A stretch of DNA of 64,000 bases from the NCBI RefSeq assembly GCF_902806445.1, contig NZ_LR760298.1, positions 124,001 to 188,000 of the forward strand, read 5' to 3'. The translations under genes and the position numbers were made by a program. Source of the DNA: Listeria sp. PSOL-1 (GTDB lineage: Bacteria; Bacillota; Bacilli; Lactobacillales; Listeriaceae). The notes below the pieces were generated by a model. It saw nothing but the letters and a program-made list of their open reading frames with translations, was not told the DNA's origin and ran no database searches. Positions 797 to 49,781 of this stretch are shown piece by piece; position 1 is the first letter of the stretch, and each line of letters begins with the position of its first letter.

Positions 797-802
797 AAGG
801 AT

Positions 803-971
803 ACACAAAATAAATCGGCGACAAGGCGTTTGTAATTTAAAAAGTTTGCCAGACTTCCGGTTCTCACATACAGTTGTACGCTCTGCTTCCGGCTTCTGGC
901 AAACTTTTTCAATACAAACGCTTTCGTTCGATTTGTCGTGTTCGAAGTGTAGCACCTATACTCTATTTTTT
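803..971 (+). repeat. Dispersed 3'-end palindromic repeat, copy A
   Basis: An imperfect palindrome of about 170 bp starts 7 bp after the LPXTG gene stop. Perfect 15-bp arms lie at 839-853 and 895-909 (AAAAAGTTTGCCAGA and its complement), with CCGG boxes inside. An outer CGACAA/TTGTCG pair lies near 819 and 934, and a T-rich tail near 962-971. The same sequence recurs at 26211-26377, 29772-29940 (reverse), 39008-39142 and 49598-49721. It has no coding capacity and no transposase. Confidence 0.85.
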
Positions 972-1104
972 AAATATAGTGGAATGGCATGATGTCCTAG
1001 GTTCTTTATTTTGGAGATTAGATAAGAAAAATCAACAATTTTAGCGGCCCTCTATTTTGTCAAAAGGATATCGCCAAAGACGTGAGTTATTTCGGTTTAC
1101 AAGT

Positions 1105-1153
1105 AAACAAGCTTTCAAAAATCAGGCATTTGATTTTTGAAAGCTTGTTTTTC
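1105..1153. terminator. Perfect 20-bp stem terminator between convergent genes
   Basis: Arms 1105-1124 and 1131-1150 are exact complements (AAACAAGCTTTCAAAAATCA) with a 6-base loop. The T-run is better on the plus strand, but the hairpin also lies just beyond the pflB stop on the minus strand, so it probably ends transcription from both sides. Confidence 0.75.
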
Positions 1154-1195
1154 TTGGGACCAATACTTATGTTCCAGATTCTTTTTGCTGAAAAA

Positions 1196-25197: not shown

Positions 25198-26199
25198 ATG
25201 AAACAAATTAATCTAAAAACCCGTCCAGTAGGCTTACCAAGTAAAGATACTTTTGAAATAAAAGATGTGAAGCTTAAAGGGATGCAAAGCGGAGATGTGC
25301 ATATTCAGTTGGTCTATTTATCTGTAGATCCTTATTTGCGCGGTAGAATGAACGATACAAAGAGTTATATTCCGCCATTTAAACTAAATGAACCGATTGT
25401 AAGTACTGGCATTGGCAAGGTAGTTAAATCGAAATCCGATGATTTTCTCGAAGGAGATTTTGTAATAGGAAGTGTACCATGGCAAGAAGAAGCCATTTTG
25501 CCAGGCGAAACACTGCAGAAAATCGATCCAGCGGTTGCTAAGTTGCCTGCTTATTTAGGGATCATTGGTATGACAGGCCTTACCGCATATTTTGGTCTAC
25601 TTGATATCGGCCAGCCCGAGCCGGATGAAACGGTAGTTGTTAGTGCTGGGGCAGGAGCAGTTGGTTCAGCTGTCGGACAGATTGCACAAATTAAAGGCGC
25701 ACGTGTAGTTGGAATAGCGGGAAGTGAAGAAAAAATCCATTACATGGTTAACGAACTAGGTTTTGATGTGGGGATAAATTATAAGACAAAAGAATTTAGC
25801 CATAATTTAGCAAAAGCGTGTCCAAATGGAATTGACGTTTATTTTGAAAATGTTGGTGGCAAAGTAAGTGATGCTGTGTGGCCATTATTAAATAAATTTG
25901 CAAGGATACCTGTATGTGGCACGATTTCCTCTTATAATAAGACAGCGGAAGAGGATATGGGCCCGCGTGTACAAAGCTATTTAATTAAATCAAGTGCTAA
26001 AATGCAAGGCTTTACAGTTGGGGATTATGCTGATCAATTTGCAGAAGGTAAAAAGCAGCTAGTGCAATGGCTAGAAGAAGGCAAACTGATCCACAAAGAG
26101 ACACTTGTACATGGATTTGATCAAACGATACCTGCATTTCTATCGTTATTTGACGGTAAGAATATTGGGAAAATCGTTGTAGACGTGAGAGGGAAATAG
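25198..26199 (+). CDS. NADP-dependent oxidoreductase, zinc-free MDR family
   Basis: This cytosolic reductase of 333 residues belongs to the leukotriene B4 dehydrogenase/curcumin reductase (YfmJ/CurA-like) branch of medium-chain reductases. It likely reduces the double bond of alpha,beta-unsaturated carbonyls with NADPH. The N-terminal YLSVDPYLRGRMND, the Rossmann stretch SAGAGAVGSAVGQIA (about 151-165), DVYFENVGG and the C-terminal GKNIGKIVVDV fit. No zinc-binding cysteines are seen. It stands alone, with GAGGTG nine bases before ATG 25198. Confidence 0.9.
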   Translation: MKQINLKTRPVGLPSKDTFEIKDVKLKGMQSGDVHIQLVYLSVDPYLRGRMNDTKSYIPPFKLNEPIVSTGIGKVVKSKSDDFLEGDFVIGSVPWQEEAILPGETLQKIDPAVAKLPAYLGIIGMTGLTAYFGLLDIGQPEPDETVVVSAGAGAVGSAVGQIAQIKGARVVGIAGSEEKIHYMVNELGFDVGINYKTKEFSHNLAKACPNGIDVYFENVGGKVSDAVWPLLNKFARIPVCGTISSYNKTAEEDMGPRVQSYLIKSSAKMQGFTVGDYADQFAEGKKQLVQWLEEGKLIHKETLVHGFDQTIPAFLSLFDGKNIGKIVVDVRGK

Positions 26200-26210
26200 T
26201 TCATTGGGGA

Positions 26211-26377
26211 TATAAATAAAATAAATTAGTGACAAGCGCTTGCAGTTTGTGTTTAAGAAAATTGTCAGACTTCCGGTAGTCGTATGTTCCGCTTCCGGTT
26301 TCTGGCAATCCTCTTAACTGAAACCGCTTTCTCCTAGTTTGTTGTATTCGAAATGCAGAATCTAAGCTCTATTTTTC
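26211..26377 (+). repeat. Dispersed 3'-end palindromic repeat, copy B
   Basis: It starts about 12 bp after the oxidoreductase stop. Arms are at 26254-26269 and 26301-26316, with TTCCGG boxes inside, flanked by GTGACAAGCGC (outer left) and AGTTTGTTGTATTCGAA (outer right), and a T-rich tail. Mismatches in the arms are partly G-T pairs. Confidence 0.8.
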
Positions 26378-29246: not shown

Positions 29247-29750
29247 ATGACTACGAGCGTCCGTAAAGCAAGTAAAGAGGATGTTACTGCTATTAAAAAT
29301 ATTGCTACACTTTCATGGCATAATACCTATAAAGATATTATCCCACAAGAAGTACAAGATGCCTTTTTAGCGAAATTTTATAATGAAAAGACATTAACTA
29401 ATCGTATCGAGGCGACGCCCTTTGCCCTTCTAATAAAAGATAAAAAAACAATTGGTTTTGTTAATTTTGTTGAATTAGCGAAAGGAAAAAGTGAATTGAC
29501 GGCATTTTATTTACATCCTGAATTCATCAATCAAGGGTATGGAACAGAACTTTTAGAAGAAGGTATGAATCTGTTTCATATACCACTCCCGATGTCAGTA
29601 AATGTTGAGAAACAAAATGAGGCAGCAATCCGTTTTTATGAAGCAAAAGGATTTGAAAAAGCGGAAGAGTTTGTGGAAGATTTTTATGGCTATGGTTTAG
29701 CAACAATCCGTTATCAACTACTACACCACGTTGAAGAAGACGAGGTCTAA
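29247..29750 (+). CDS. GNAT family N-acetyltransferase
   Basis: An acetyl-CoA-dependent acetyltransferase of 167 residues. It has N-terminal [16 protein letters not shown], the strand [24 protein letters not shown] with the acetyl-CoA loop QGYGTE, and C-terminal [20 protein letters not shown]. The substrate is unknown; the pattern is of the spermidine/amino-acid acetyltransferase type. The ribosome site AGAGGAGGA precedes ATG 29247. Confidence 0.88.
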
Positions 29751-29771
29751 TCAAACGAAAGGCCATCCGAT

Positions 29772-29940
29772 TAAAAAAGAAAGCGTAGGTATTACATTTC
29801 GAATACGACAAATCGAGAGAAAGCGTTTGCCTTGAAGAGGTTTGCCAGAAGCCGGAAGCGGAGCGTACGACTGTACGTGAGAACCGGAAGTCTGGCAAGC
29901 CTCTTCAATGTGAGCGCTTGTCGTTTGTGTATGTTCAGCC
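29772..29940 (-). repeat. Dispersed 3'-end palindromic repeat, copy C (reverse)
   Basis: This copy is inverted and begins about 7 bp beyond the stop of the minus-strand gene ending at 29947, so it keeps the family rule of following a stop codon in the sense direction. Arms 29834-29849 (GAAGAGGTTTGCCAGA) and 29891-29906 pair over 16 bp with one T-G pair. Confidence 0.85.
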
Positions 29941-29946
29941 CCTTTT

Positions 29947-30336
29947 TTATTTAGATGAGGCTGCTTTACCACTATGTGAGTATCCACCGCGAAAAATGAA
30001 GAAAATCACGCTAAGGGATGTCGCAATGATCCCACCAAGAGCTGAAAGTAGAATGATCATGAGTGTAGTAGCTAATTGGAGAATACCTAGAACCACGACA
30101 GTGATCAAAACGCCATAAATCAATCCATACATTGCAAATCTTGCTAATGTCGCTTTTTTACTAAATCCATAGTAAATTTCAGCGATTGTTGCACCCACGA
30201 AGATTGATGGAGCAGCAAACAGAATAGCTGCGAAGATAAGCTCTAGCGTTAGTTTATCAAATAGTAAACCTTCCATTCCAATGACAGCAAAAATCCCCAA
30301 AATAAAGACCGTTAAATAAGCAAAAATAAAACGCAA
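29947..30336 (-). CDS. Small membrane protein, unknown function
   Basis: The product has 129 residues and four hydrophobic segments with short loops, ending in a Gly/Ser-rich tail (GGYSHSGKAASSK). I recognise no family. I chose TTG 30336 because GGAGG at 30345-30349 (minus strand) lies eight bases upstream; the GTG at 30345 is part of that ribosome site. Confidence 0.65.
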   Translation of the reverse strand: MRFIFAYLTVFILGIFAVIGMEGLLFDKLTLELIFAAILFAAPSIFVGATIAEIYYGFSKKATLARFAMYGLIYGVLITVVVLGILQLATTLMIILLSALGGIIATSLSVIFFIFRGGYSHSGKAASSK

Positions 30337-30428
30337 TATTGCCACCTCCGATAATATATTAGTATAGCAAATAAATAAGAATTACGGAAAAATTTGCCAA
30401 AGAGGCGCTGTTTATACCGGATCTGGGC

Positions 30429-38994: not shown

Positions 38995-39007
38995 TCCACA
39001 GAAAGAG

Positions 39008-39142
39008 CCTGTGACATAAACAAAATAAATTAGCGACAAGCGCTCGCGATTGAAAAGGTTTGCCAGACTTCGGGTTTCTGGCAAGCCTTTTCAATATAGA
39101 CGCTTTCGCTCGATTTGTCGTGTAGAGTCTACGCTATATTTT
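39008..39142 (+). repeat. Dispersed 3'-end palindromic repeat, copy D (short loop)
   Basis: It starts 14 bp after the chitinase stop. The loop between the arms is reduced to nine bases, so 39050-39067 (TTGAAAAGGTTTGCCAGA) pairs with 39077-39094 over 18 bp, with one G-T pair. The outer CGACAA/TTGTCG pair and the T-rich tail are kept. Confidence 0.85.
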
Positions 39143-39250
39143 CTTGAATGACCCAGACGCTTTTATTTATTGCGCAAAAGGAATCTTTTTGATAAATGAC
39201 ATCCTTAAAAATCCAGTGTATACTTAAATGTAAAAAGGGGGTAACATAGA

Positions 39251-48269: not shown

Positions 48270-48275
48270 AAAAAT

Positions 48276-48370
48276 GAAAGAGCGATGGAGTTCGCTAAAA
48301 CCGCAATATGCTGATGACTCCTGTTTAAGTAAGCTTAGTTCAACCCTAGGCTTGTTTAAGCAGGATTTTT
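48276..48370 (+). ncRNA. Fluoride riboswitch (crcB motif) with terminator
   Basis: The aptamer core is present: GCGATGGAGTTCGC (about 48282-48295), then AACCGC, and the conserved GCTGATGACTCCT (48310-48322). Its last bases also start the terminator: CCTGTTTAAGTAAGCTTAG (from 48320) pairs with CTTGTTTAAGCAGG (to about 48364), followed by T5. Fluoride binding should hold the aptamer and stop the terminator from forming, turning on the two fluoride exporters. Confidence 0.93.
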
Positions 48371-48394: not shown

Positions 48395-48775
48395 ATGTAT
48401 TACGTATATATTGCTATTTTCAGTGCACTAGGTGGCATGAGCCGCTATGGAATTAGCTTACTTATCAATGCTAATAACTTTCCCATTGCAACACTTGTCG
48501 TTAATCTCTTGGGATCATTTTTGTTAGCAATCATTATGCAATATTTTGCGGAAAATGTGGATGTTCCACCGCAATTAATTGCTGGTTTAGGGACAGGTTT
48601 TGTCGGTTCTTTTACTACATTTTCAAGCTTTAGTGTTGAAAATATTCATTTGTTAATGAACGGGCAATATTTTCTTGCGATTAGTTATATTGTGGTTAGT
48701 TTATGTGGGGGTTTGCTGTTTGCAGGTGTAGGTTATAAAGTAAGCTGGATTTTAGTAAAGCGAAGGGGGCTTTGA
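48395..48775 (+). CDS. crcB1: Fluoride channel CrcB/Fluc, subunit 1
   Basis: A small fluoride-exporting channel of 126 residues and four membrane segments. Motifs: GGMSRYGIS at the start, TLVVNLLGSFLLA (pore Asn), and GTGFVGSFTTFSSFSVE (Phe/Thr fluoride track and central Na+ site). It lies directly behind the fluoride riboswitch, with AGAGGAGG before ATG 48395. It likely pairs with the product of the next gene as an antiparallel heterodimer. Confidence 0.95.
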   Translation: MYYVYIAIFSALGGMSRYGISLLINANNFPIATLVVNLLGSFLLAIIMQYFAENVDVPPQLIAGLGTGFVGSFTTFSSFSVENIHLLMNGQYFLAISYIVVSLCGGLLFAGVGYKVSWILVKRRGL

Positions 48776-49226: not shown

Positions 49227-49598
49227 ATGAAAAAAATTATTTTCCTTTCTATCATTGCTTTATTTGTTTTTTTAGCCGTTGGTTGCGGTAAACAAGGTGT
49301 TCCTGCAGTGGTAGTAAATGGTACAATTAGTGATGCAAGTTCAGCTGTTCAAAATAAGACTTTAATGGTAAATGGCACGTTGAGTTGGCAAGGTGAGGCA
49401 GAAAAAAATTCACGAGACTTAACTGTTCTGCTAAATGATTCAACAAAAATTACAGATGCTTCTGGTAAAACGACAAAAATCGCTTCATTACGAAAAGGAG
49501 ACCGTTTTTCTGCCGTTTTTCCTGAAGGGACAAAAATCGTTTCTCCATCACCAGGTAAAGTTTCAAACCCAGCAACTTCTATTAAGCTAACAAAATAG
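49227..49598 (+). CDS. Small lipoprotein, unknown function
   Basis: The product has 123 residues. The signal peptide ends in the lipobox AVGC (Cys 20), followed by a small beta-rich domain with LMVNGTLSWQGEAEKNSRDL and a conserved-looking LRKGDRFSAVFPEGTKI. No family is recognised; the fold pattern suggests an OB- or Ig-like barrel. GAAAGGTAA precedes ATG 49227. A palindromic repeat copy abuts the stop codon. Confidence 0.75.
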   Translation: MKKIIFLSIIALFVFLAVGCGKQGVPAVVVNGTISDASSAVQNKTLMVNGTLSWQGEAEKNSRDLTVLLNDSTKITDASGKTTKIASLRKGDRFSAVFPEGTKIVSPSPGKVSNPATSIKLTK

Positions 49599-49721
49599 CT
49601 CGGCGACAAGCACGCGCGATTGAAGAGGTTTGCCAGACTTCTTCTTCTGATGAACTCTTTAATGCAAGCGTTTTCTATTAGTTTGTCGTGTTCGAACTAT
49701 AGAACTTATACTATCTTTTTT
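49598..49721 (+). repeat. Dispersed 3'-end palindromic repeat, copy E (degenerate)
   Basis: It begins at the stop codon of the small lipoprotein gene. The left arm TTGAAGAGGTTTGCCAGA (49620-49637) is intact, but the right arm (49646-49662) has several changes and the loop is short. The flanking CGGCGACAAGC and TTTGTCGTGTTCGAA are kept. A second hairpin with T-run (49744-49780) follows. Confidence 0.75.
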
Positions 49722-49743
49722 GAATCATATTTTCTTAAAAAAT

Positions 49744-49781
49744 AGAGCTGAGGCACATGATGCCTTAGACTCTTTTTTTGT
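49744..49781 (+). terminator. Terminator after repeat copy E
   Basis: AGAG-TGAGGCA (49744-49755) pairs with TGCCTTAG-CTCT (49761-49773), followed by T7. A similar but weaker hairpin follows copy A near 985-1010. Confidence 0.65.

Follow-up and report, generated by a model that had tools for sequence, protein, structure and literature searches.

The stretch of DNA analysed here (the window; 64,000 nucleotides, positions 124001-188000 of the genome of Listeria sp. PSOL-1, hereafter G000, which is a single contig of 2,096,749 bases) carries five long intergenic palindromes at gene 3' ends. An initial annotation took them for a terminator, an mRNA 3' stabiliser or a processing signal, and the question that they raise is whether they are such a resident signal or copies of something that inserts. 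We consider it highly probable that they belong to an EFAR-like, non-autonomous mobile palindrome that targets hairpins and replaces the tips of terminators in either orientation. A mobile element with a terminator target is indicated by the random orientation of the copies, by their number (about 90 in this genome as against none convincing in 24 congeners) and by sites of which both an occupied and an unoccupied form exist.

Copies and anatomy of the element

A covariance model of the element core (R1; 160 positions, built from 22 copies including the five of the window) recovers exactly five copies in the window, at E-values that range between 9e-16 and 6e-36. These are the five palindromes of the initial annotation, and the model finds no other place there, opposite-strand echoes aside. 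The cores start at about window positions 814, 26225, 29769, 39029 and 49599, corresponding to genome positions 124814+, 150225+, 153769-, 163029+ and 173599+. The boundaries first assigned to them cover the core, the element itself being about 15-60 bp longer on its 3' side, where a second hairpin follows and then, wherever it is undecayed, an inverted end. The copies and a short form are as follows:

797..1008, + strand: copy c1, in a convergent spacer behind a SpaA-domain surface-protein gene (stop at 796), the gene facing it being pyruvate-formate-lyase-like (both from Pfam); left end decayed, right end ATGATGTCCTAGGTTCTTT readable; core G000:124814-124975
1148..1187, - strand: short form made up of nothing but the end palindrome, GAATCTGGAACATAAGTATTGGTCCCAAG, immediately behind the pyruvate-formate-lyase-like gene; pattern match at G000:125167-125182
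26205..26376, + strand: copy c2, in a tandem spacer downstream of a gene that ends at 26199; left and right ends decayed; core G000:150225-150381
29757..29946, - strand: copy c3, between convergent genes at 29247-29750 (+) and 29947-30345 (-); ends partly decayed; G000:153769-153928
39003..39164, + strand: copy c4, in a tandem spacer after a GH18 gene; core G000:163029-163148
49590..49779, + strand: copy c5, with an internal deletion; right end with a T run readable; core G000:173599-173725

In c4 the centre of the big loop is missing and both inverted ends can be read (AAAGAGCCTGTGACAT / ATGACCCAGACGCTTTT). In c5 the upstream gene ends at a TAG (49596-49598) that belongs to the left sequence of the element, ACAAAATAA/TAG, a sequence able to supply a stop codon. 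Four other genomes of the window's genus have clean, unrelated terminators where G000 has the short palindrome at 1148-1187. Another short form of G000, AAAAAAGAGTCTGGGACATAAATGCTTGTCCTAGACTCTTTTTTT, is an uninterrupted palindrome with no full element (L079; G000:286922-286955). It lies behind a gene with a GPWEL.. tail, which is also found in the GH18 gene, with its CBM5/12 module, that precedes c4. The window further holds a fluoride riboswitch (48272-48330, + strand; 51.3 bits, gathering threshold 34), followed downstream by a gene of the CrcB family (PF02537) at 48395.

Searched with c3 alone by BLAST, the whole genome yields 45 matching pieces at about 40 places. R1 returns 140 matches at E <= 1, which include opposite-strand echoes because the core is palindromic. 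Counted by hand on the better strand only, at E <= 0.001 and leaving out one ambiguous place (113709), the element is present at 90 places.

The anatomy was drawn by eye as a composite of 30 oriented copies, many of them with decayed ends. From left to right, the left end AGAGTCTGGGACAT is followed by AACAAAATAAATCGGCGACAAGCG and then by a long stem, CATTGAAGAAGTTTGCCAGA / TCTGGCAAACTTCTTCAATG, whose CTTCCGG-bounded centre is often deleted. After the long stem come CGCTTTCGCTCGATTTGTCG, a small GTAG-CTAC hairpin, a second hairpin GCTCTATTTTTT...AAAAAATAGAGC and the right end ATGATGTCCTAGACTCTTTT, which is an inverted copy of the left end. The element has terminal inverted repeats (left AGAGTCTGGGACAT, right ATGTCCTAGACTCT), with intact ends readable in a minority of copies, and measures about 195-290 bp between them, besides shorter derivatives. 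Compared with shuffled sequences, the RNA folds of c1 and c4 have z-scores of -5.5 and -5.2. In the folds of c1 and of L129, a copy from a related genus, the long stem and the second stem form two adjacent hairpins, and at occupied sites such as L129, L086, c4 and c5 a hairpin is followed by a T run.

Unoccupied sites, insertion edges and paired arms

The same build, with another inner stem (TTTGGCGGA / TCCACCAAA), is found in a related genus of the same family (g3), of which nine genomes were sampled, one of them (G035) a single contig. The upstream flanks of 11 occupied sites of G035 were searched in the eight other g3 genomes, giving 68 matches over 10 sites; 50 of these had a locus and were examined, and 18 were not. 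Among the 50 loci, 11 are without the downstream neighbour, five are occupied (three in the orientation of G035 and two in the opposite one) and 34 are unoccupied with both neighbours present. At 32 of the 34 unoccupied loci there is a terminator-like hairpin with a stem of 8 or more pairs and, on one strand, a T run. As a control, the better of two mononucleotide shuffles was taken 50 times for every locus, and a stem as good as the observed one came up in 0-5 of these draws. We folded 25 chosen unoccupied examples. The loci L141 and L208 failed the hairpin scoring, L208 nonetheless folding as a terminator, and a few other unoccupied hairpins are weak (L117, L222). L223, scored as lacking the neighbour, holds an inverted copy by eye.

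Terminators are common at gene ends; hence, an unoccupied terminator alone is weak evidence, and it is the position of the edges at three g3 sites that is decisive. At each of these, in alignments made by eye, the lower stem is kept, a tip of 28-33 bp is replaced and the edges lie inside both arms. At the site L092, the unoccupied version in G030 reads GAATAAAAATAAGCGGCGACTTTAGGATTTGGAGTCGTCGCTTATTTTTATT and the occupied version in G033 reads GAATAAAAATAAG, element, TATTTTTATT, 29 bp of the tip being gone; the lower stem retained in L129 (G033), as compared with L140, is AAAAATAAG...TATTTTTATT. At the site L087, G034 has the unoccupied AATAGCAAAAACGCC...GGCGTTTTTGCTATT, and G031 has AATAGCAAA, an inverted element and TTTGCTATT, with 28 bp gone. 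Here the comparison of L211 with L209 gives AATAGCAAA...TTTGCTATT as the kept stem, and the copy of L211 is opposite in orientation to that of G035. At the site L086 (L086 compared with L204), 33 bp have been lost between AAATAAAAAAAG and TTTTT(GT)ATTATTT. No target-site duplication is visible at these three g3 sites with readable edges. The fold of L129 has one closed outer stem, made up of the retained target and the element ends, around two inner stems (z -6.95).

For the window copies c2, c4 and c5, four genomes of the window's genus gave no unoccupied site, being too diverged. For c3, G007 has a long orthologous spacer with a terminator in it, but the edges are not alignable. In G014, a CRISPR-like array with a 36-bp repeat (GTTTTAGAGGTATGTTATTCTGAATGGTTCCAAAAC) and spacers (L063, 4500-4900) lies beside the orthologue of the gene preceding c3.

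If target stems are retained, each copy should show pairing between the sequences that immediately flank its two ends. Such pairing is weakly significant in g3 (8.33 against 7.53 of 14 positions, for the 15 of 70 copies with both ends found; 366 of 20000 permutations). A first version of the test, in which some right ends were misassigned (e.g. L091 and L099), gave 822 of 20000 permutations for 14 of the 30 copies of G035 and 19725 of 20000 for 14 of the 90 copies of G000. With four of the 90 the count in G000 is 18262 of 20000, and the pairing is absent in that genome. Since the tests are negative there, the claim of hairpin insertion for the window copies rests on their membership of the family.

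The arms of the long stem are paired copy by copy within the element. In the 112 of 160 copies with both anchors, a copy's own arms pair at 14.1 of 16 positions, as against 9.7 when the two arms come from different copies. The corresponding values are 13.4 against 11.5 in G000 (43 copies), 14.4 against 10.9 in G035 (29) and 14.8 against 10.9 in the other g3 genomes (40), with 0 of 5000 permutations in each of the three sets. Arm sequences vary from CATTCAGGGAGTTTGGCG to CCTCGCCCCAATTTGATG, yet they are complementary. Among g3 species there are 12 orthologous occupied pairs, 11 of them with readable arms, and at these pairing survives in both copies at all 26 two-sided changes and fails at 24 of the 26 one-sided changes; 18 of those 26 one-sided changes come from two pairs that are misanchored or shifted (L242/L247 and L105/L249). 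At one orthologous site both arms may differ at up to seven of 17 positions and still be paired. In the pair L230/L254, five two-sided arm differences despite flanks that are 94.5-96% identical suggest that both arms could have been replaced jointly rather than by stepwise compensation. This joint turnover of the two arms is the element's most unusual feature.

These observations bear first on an explanation without any transposition, in which terminator hairpins are exchanged by replication template switching or ectopic gene conversion, with A/T tracts and stems acting as microhomology. It would accommodate a target tip that is replaced rather than duplicated and arms that change together at orthologous sites with every two-sided change paired, and the one enzyme family tested as a mover (PF01797) does not track the element. 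However, a shared stem of about 9 bp is short for conversion, and about 90 sites in one lineage suggest a dedicated process, so that we regard such exchange as unlikely.

A poorer fit is a classical MITE, moved by the DDE transposase of an autonomous IS with the same inverted ends and duplicating its target. The inverted ends, the high copy number and the internal-deletion derivatives are what such an element would have, but an IS-driven MITE is expected to duplicate its target, and at the three readable sites 28-33 bp of target are lost with no duplication seen. In G000, moreover, none of 37 pattern matches forms a convergent pair of end motifs at IS-like spacing, and we hold this origin to be quite improbable. 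RUP and NEMIS also duplicate their target, whereas the Listeriaceae element replaces it. The pneumococcal BOX/RUP/SPRITE elements, NEMIS and ERIC appear in one account as miniature intergenic elements whose RNA folds strongly (PMC10969869). REP elements (TnpA-REP/RAYT) are likewise extragenic palindromes in many copies with no transposase in cis, and at the 20-40 bp quoted for them (PMC3733652) the Listeriaceae element is much longer. A RAYT-type Y1 transposase (PF01797) was discarded as the mover: it does not follow the element, being absent from G000 and present in one of the nine g3 genomes.

Distribution and position relative to genes

All nine g3 genomes are positive in searches for the element, with 13-47 matches each, echoes included. 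Within the window's own genus, none of the 24 other genomes has a convincing match (two reach E of about 0.005-0.007), and both genomes sampled from a second genus of the family have no match. Under stricter filters, 10 of 395 genomes of the order are positive, namely G000 and the nine of g3, as against 0 of the 385 others, and the R1 core model has no match in the sampled genomes outside Listeriaceae. An exact 20-base probe finds one stretch in named genomes, a copy of the element in Listeria portnoyi; the probe differs from the usual g3 stem and its single match is no measure of frequency. The genus g3 would be the Listeria group that includes L. portnoyi.

Plasmids have no match to the g3 form (L085) or to the G000 form (L002), phages have none to the g3 form (L085), and viral contigs have none to an exact 22-base core pattern. 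Literature searches, judged by titles, and searches with sequence strings found no description of this Listeria repeat, in agreement with the first impression that none had been named. According to PMC2267715, neither L. innocua nor L. monocytogenes has clusters of repeated stem-loops, which is in line with a genus that lacks the element here. G000 has 2.10 Mb in one contig at 95.9% completeness, as against 2.6-3.2 Mb in the 24 other genomes of its genus, and within that genus it alone has the element in number; a reduced lineage with an expansion of the element is possible. In G035, seven copies (L106-L110, L112 and L113) have a longer form, with a core of 214-231 bp and an extra inner segment like CTTCTTACATGGTCGGGGAAACTACTCCCTCCCTGTTTTCAGTCATCA, and L102 has a longer form too, with a different insert.

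Neighbouring genes were taken from ORF-based calls in the flanks of the copies. Of the 90 copies of G000, 46 are in convergent spacers, 20 are co-directional in tandem spacers and 24 are opposite in tandem spacers; divergent spacers have none. Since 11 of the 42 window spacers of at least 40 bp are divergent (26%; 32% by length), 0 of 90 copies there is very unlikely. In 86 of the 90 a facing stop codon lies no more than 60 bp from the core, and in all of them no more than 161 bp. Where the left neighbour is directed towards the copy (66 copies), the median distance from stop to core is 21 bp, and about 22 bp of the stop-to-core distance is the element's own left end. The five window copies do begin within about 15 bp of a stop codon, as originally noted.

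They also share one orientation relative to the gene that they follow, and this had been offered as an argument against an inserting element. However, c1, c3 and c5 are in convergent spacers, and the tandem spacers of the genome are evenly divided (20 versus 24, p = 0.65), so that orientation is random genome-wide and the argument falls. Of the signs that had been named as telling against a 3'-end role, random orientation is present, and random position, copies inside genes and target duplications are not. In G035, 12 of the 30 copies are opposite, seven co-directional, nine convergent and two divergent; 21 have a facing stop within 60 bp and two have no facing stop. The 3'-end rule holds in G000 and less strictly in G035, and the orientation rule fails. 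Some of the g3 copies are found within operons or T-box leaders, and many are without the inverted ends. Three g3 copies (L098, L242 and L247, the last two being the same site in two genomes) adjoin, on the opposite strand, a sequence like AGGGTGG(N)ACCGCG, the conserved motif of T-box leaders. Leader hairpins, too, may be targets of the element.

A resident regulatory family (a terminator, an mRNA 3' stabiliser or an RNase III site), kept by selection and not mobile, is close to what was first proposed, and its connection with gene 3' ends, terminators and strong folds stands. The compensatory arms and the g3 copies that occupy the same site in two species could also be read in its favour. 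It leaves the random orientation, the want of anything convincing in 24 congeneric genomes, a site that is occupied or unoccupied among related species and opposite orientations at one site to be explained, all of which fit a mobile element. We therefore see little chance that this family is a resident one, and a regulatory reading is secondary at best. In general, 3'-end location and strong structure are insufficient evidence for a resident regulatory RNA. Group IIC introns prefer intrinsic terminators, lie beside the terminator in a fixed orientation and carry a ribozyme core; an RNA-mediated element using terminators as they do would share the terminator targeting and a probably transcribed location, but random orientation, insertion inside the stem and no Rfam family at the window copies (gathering thresholds) make it scarcely credible.

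Probable enterococcal relatives and a proposed model of movement

The end motif GTCTGGGACATAA, allowing at most one mismatch, has 6-21 matches in each g3 genome, versus 0-3 for the reversed pattern. It is also enriched in some genomes of another family (f3), with 38 matches against 3 for the reversed control in G232 and 27 against 1 in G259; most other genomes have few matches, about as many as the control. At 30 loci of G232 and G259 the motif lies mostly in 35-bp hairpins, GTCTGGGACATAACTC...GAGTTATGTCCCAGAC, some of which are followed by a second repeated module with CCGAATAAACGGTGGGAGC. Against plasmids, at a limit of E 1, the f3 modules L284 and L279 have partial matches only, in 36 and 27 records, of which 29 and 25, respectively, are from Enterococcus; the module L283 has no plasmid match at E 0.001. 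An Enterococcus faecium element of about 175 bp (L320) has ends GTGGGACAAAAG...CTTTTGTCCCAG, two hairpins by eye and a CCTCTTTTT tail. L318, L319 and L321 are diverged versions of it, L318 and L321 looking alike. The left end of these four enterococcal elements is TGGGACA or TGGAACA, and their ATAAACGG(C/T)GG box resembles ATAAATCGGCGG, a likeness seen by eye. The Listeriaceae core differs from them in its long stem around TTTGCCAGA or TTTGGCGGA and in its CTTCCGG boxes.

The EFAR elements of Enterococcus faecalis, reportedly described by Venditti et al. in 2007, are said to insert into unrelated stem-loops of 24-37 bp, with most of the loop deleted and part of the stem kept. A hairpin target, a lost loop and a partly kept stem are what the Listeriaceae element has at the three g3 sites. 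An EFAR-like element is an intergenic palindrome of about 170 bp with two adjacent hairpins (an L shape) and shorter forms, both of which features the Listeriaceae element shares. EFAR is named among MITEs in PMC3733652, and an Efa-1 family of 163 bp, with 65 copies and a double hairpin, is given in PMC2267715; the two are probably the same. The anatomy of L320 agrees with EFAR as described above and with Efa-1 as outlined in PMC2267715. The Listeriaceae element behaves like enterococcal EFAR and is probably related to it.

We propose that intrinsic terminators, and probably hairpins of other kinds, are the element's insertion targets, most of them directly following a stop codon, and that it enters them in either orientation. 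Insertion would remove the hairpin tip (about 28-33 bp), the lower stem and the A and T tracts belonging to it staying in place. The element ends, CTGGGACATAA...TT(A/T)TGTCCCAG, would then continue the retained stem into one large closed structure followed by a T run, and the occupied site would probably still terminate transcription. The target may be recognised as an extruded hairpin and the element moved by something supplied in trans. Recognition of the hairpin by a trans-acting nuclease or recombinase is possible, as is hairpin exchange during replication. The window copies would have arisen in the same way as those of g3.

More tentatively, the process could be one of hairpin-for-hairpin replacement in which any extruded hairpin is a target, existing copies of the element included; we would not expect this to be the case, though it deserves to be kept in mind. 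If true, self-targeting replacement would explain the paired turnover of the arms, the flips of orientation at one site and the loss of the tip, and movement would depend on a hairpin nuclease or replication template switching, not on a transposase. Such elements, long in Listeriaceae and short hairpins in enterococcus-like genomes, would then be a major source of new terminators.

For the mobile palindrome as proposed here, the nine related species with their occupied and unoccupied sites provide a large set for working out how it moves. One class of long intergenic palindromes would thus be terminator-invading mobile DNA. This suggests how the genome can tolerate about 90 insertions, each of which goes into a terminator and probably leaves a terminator behind.
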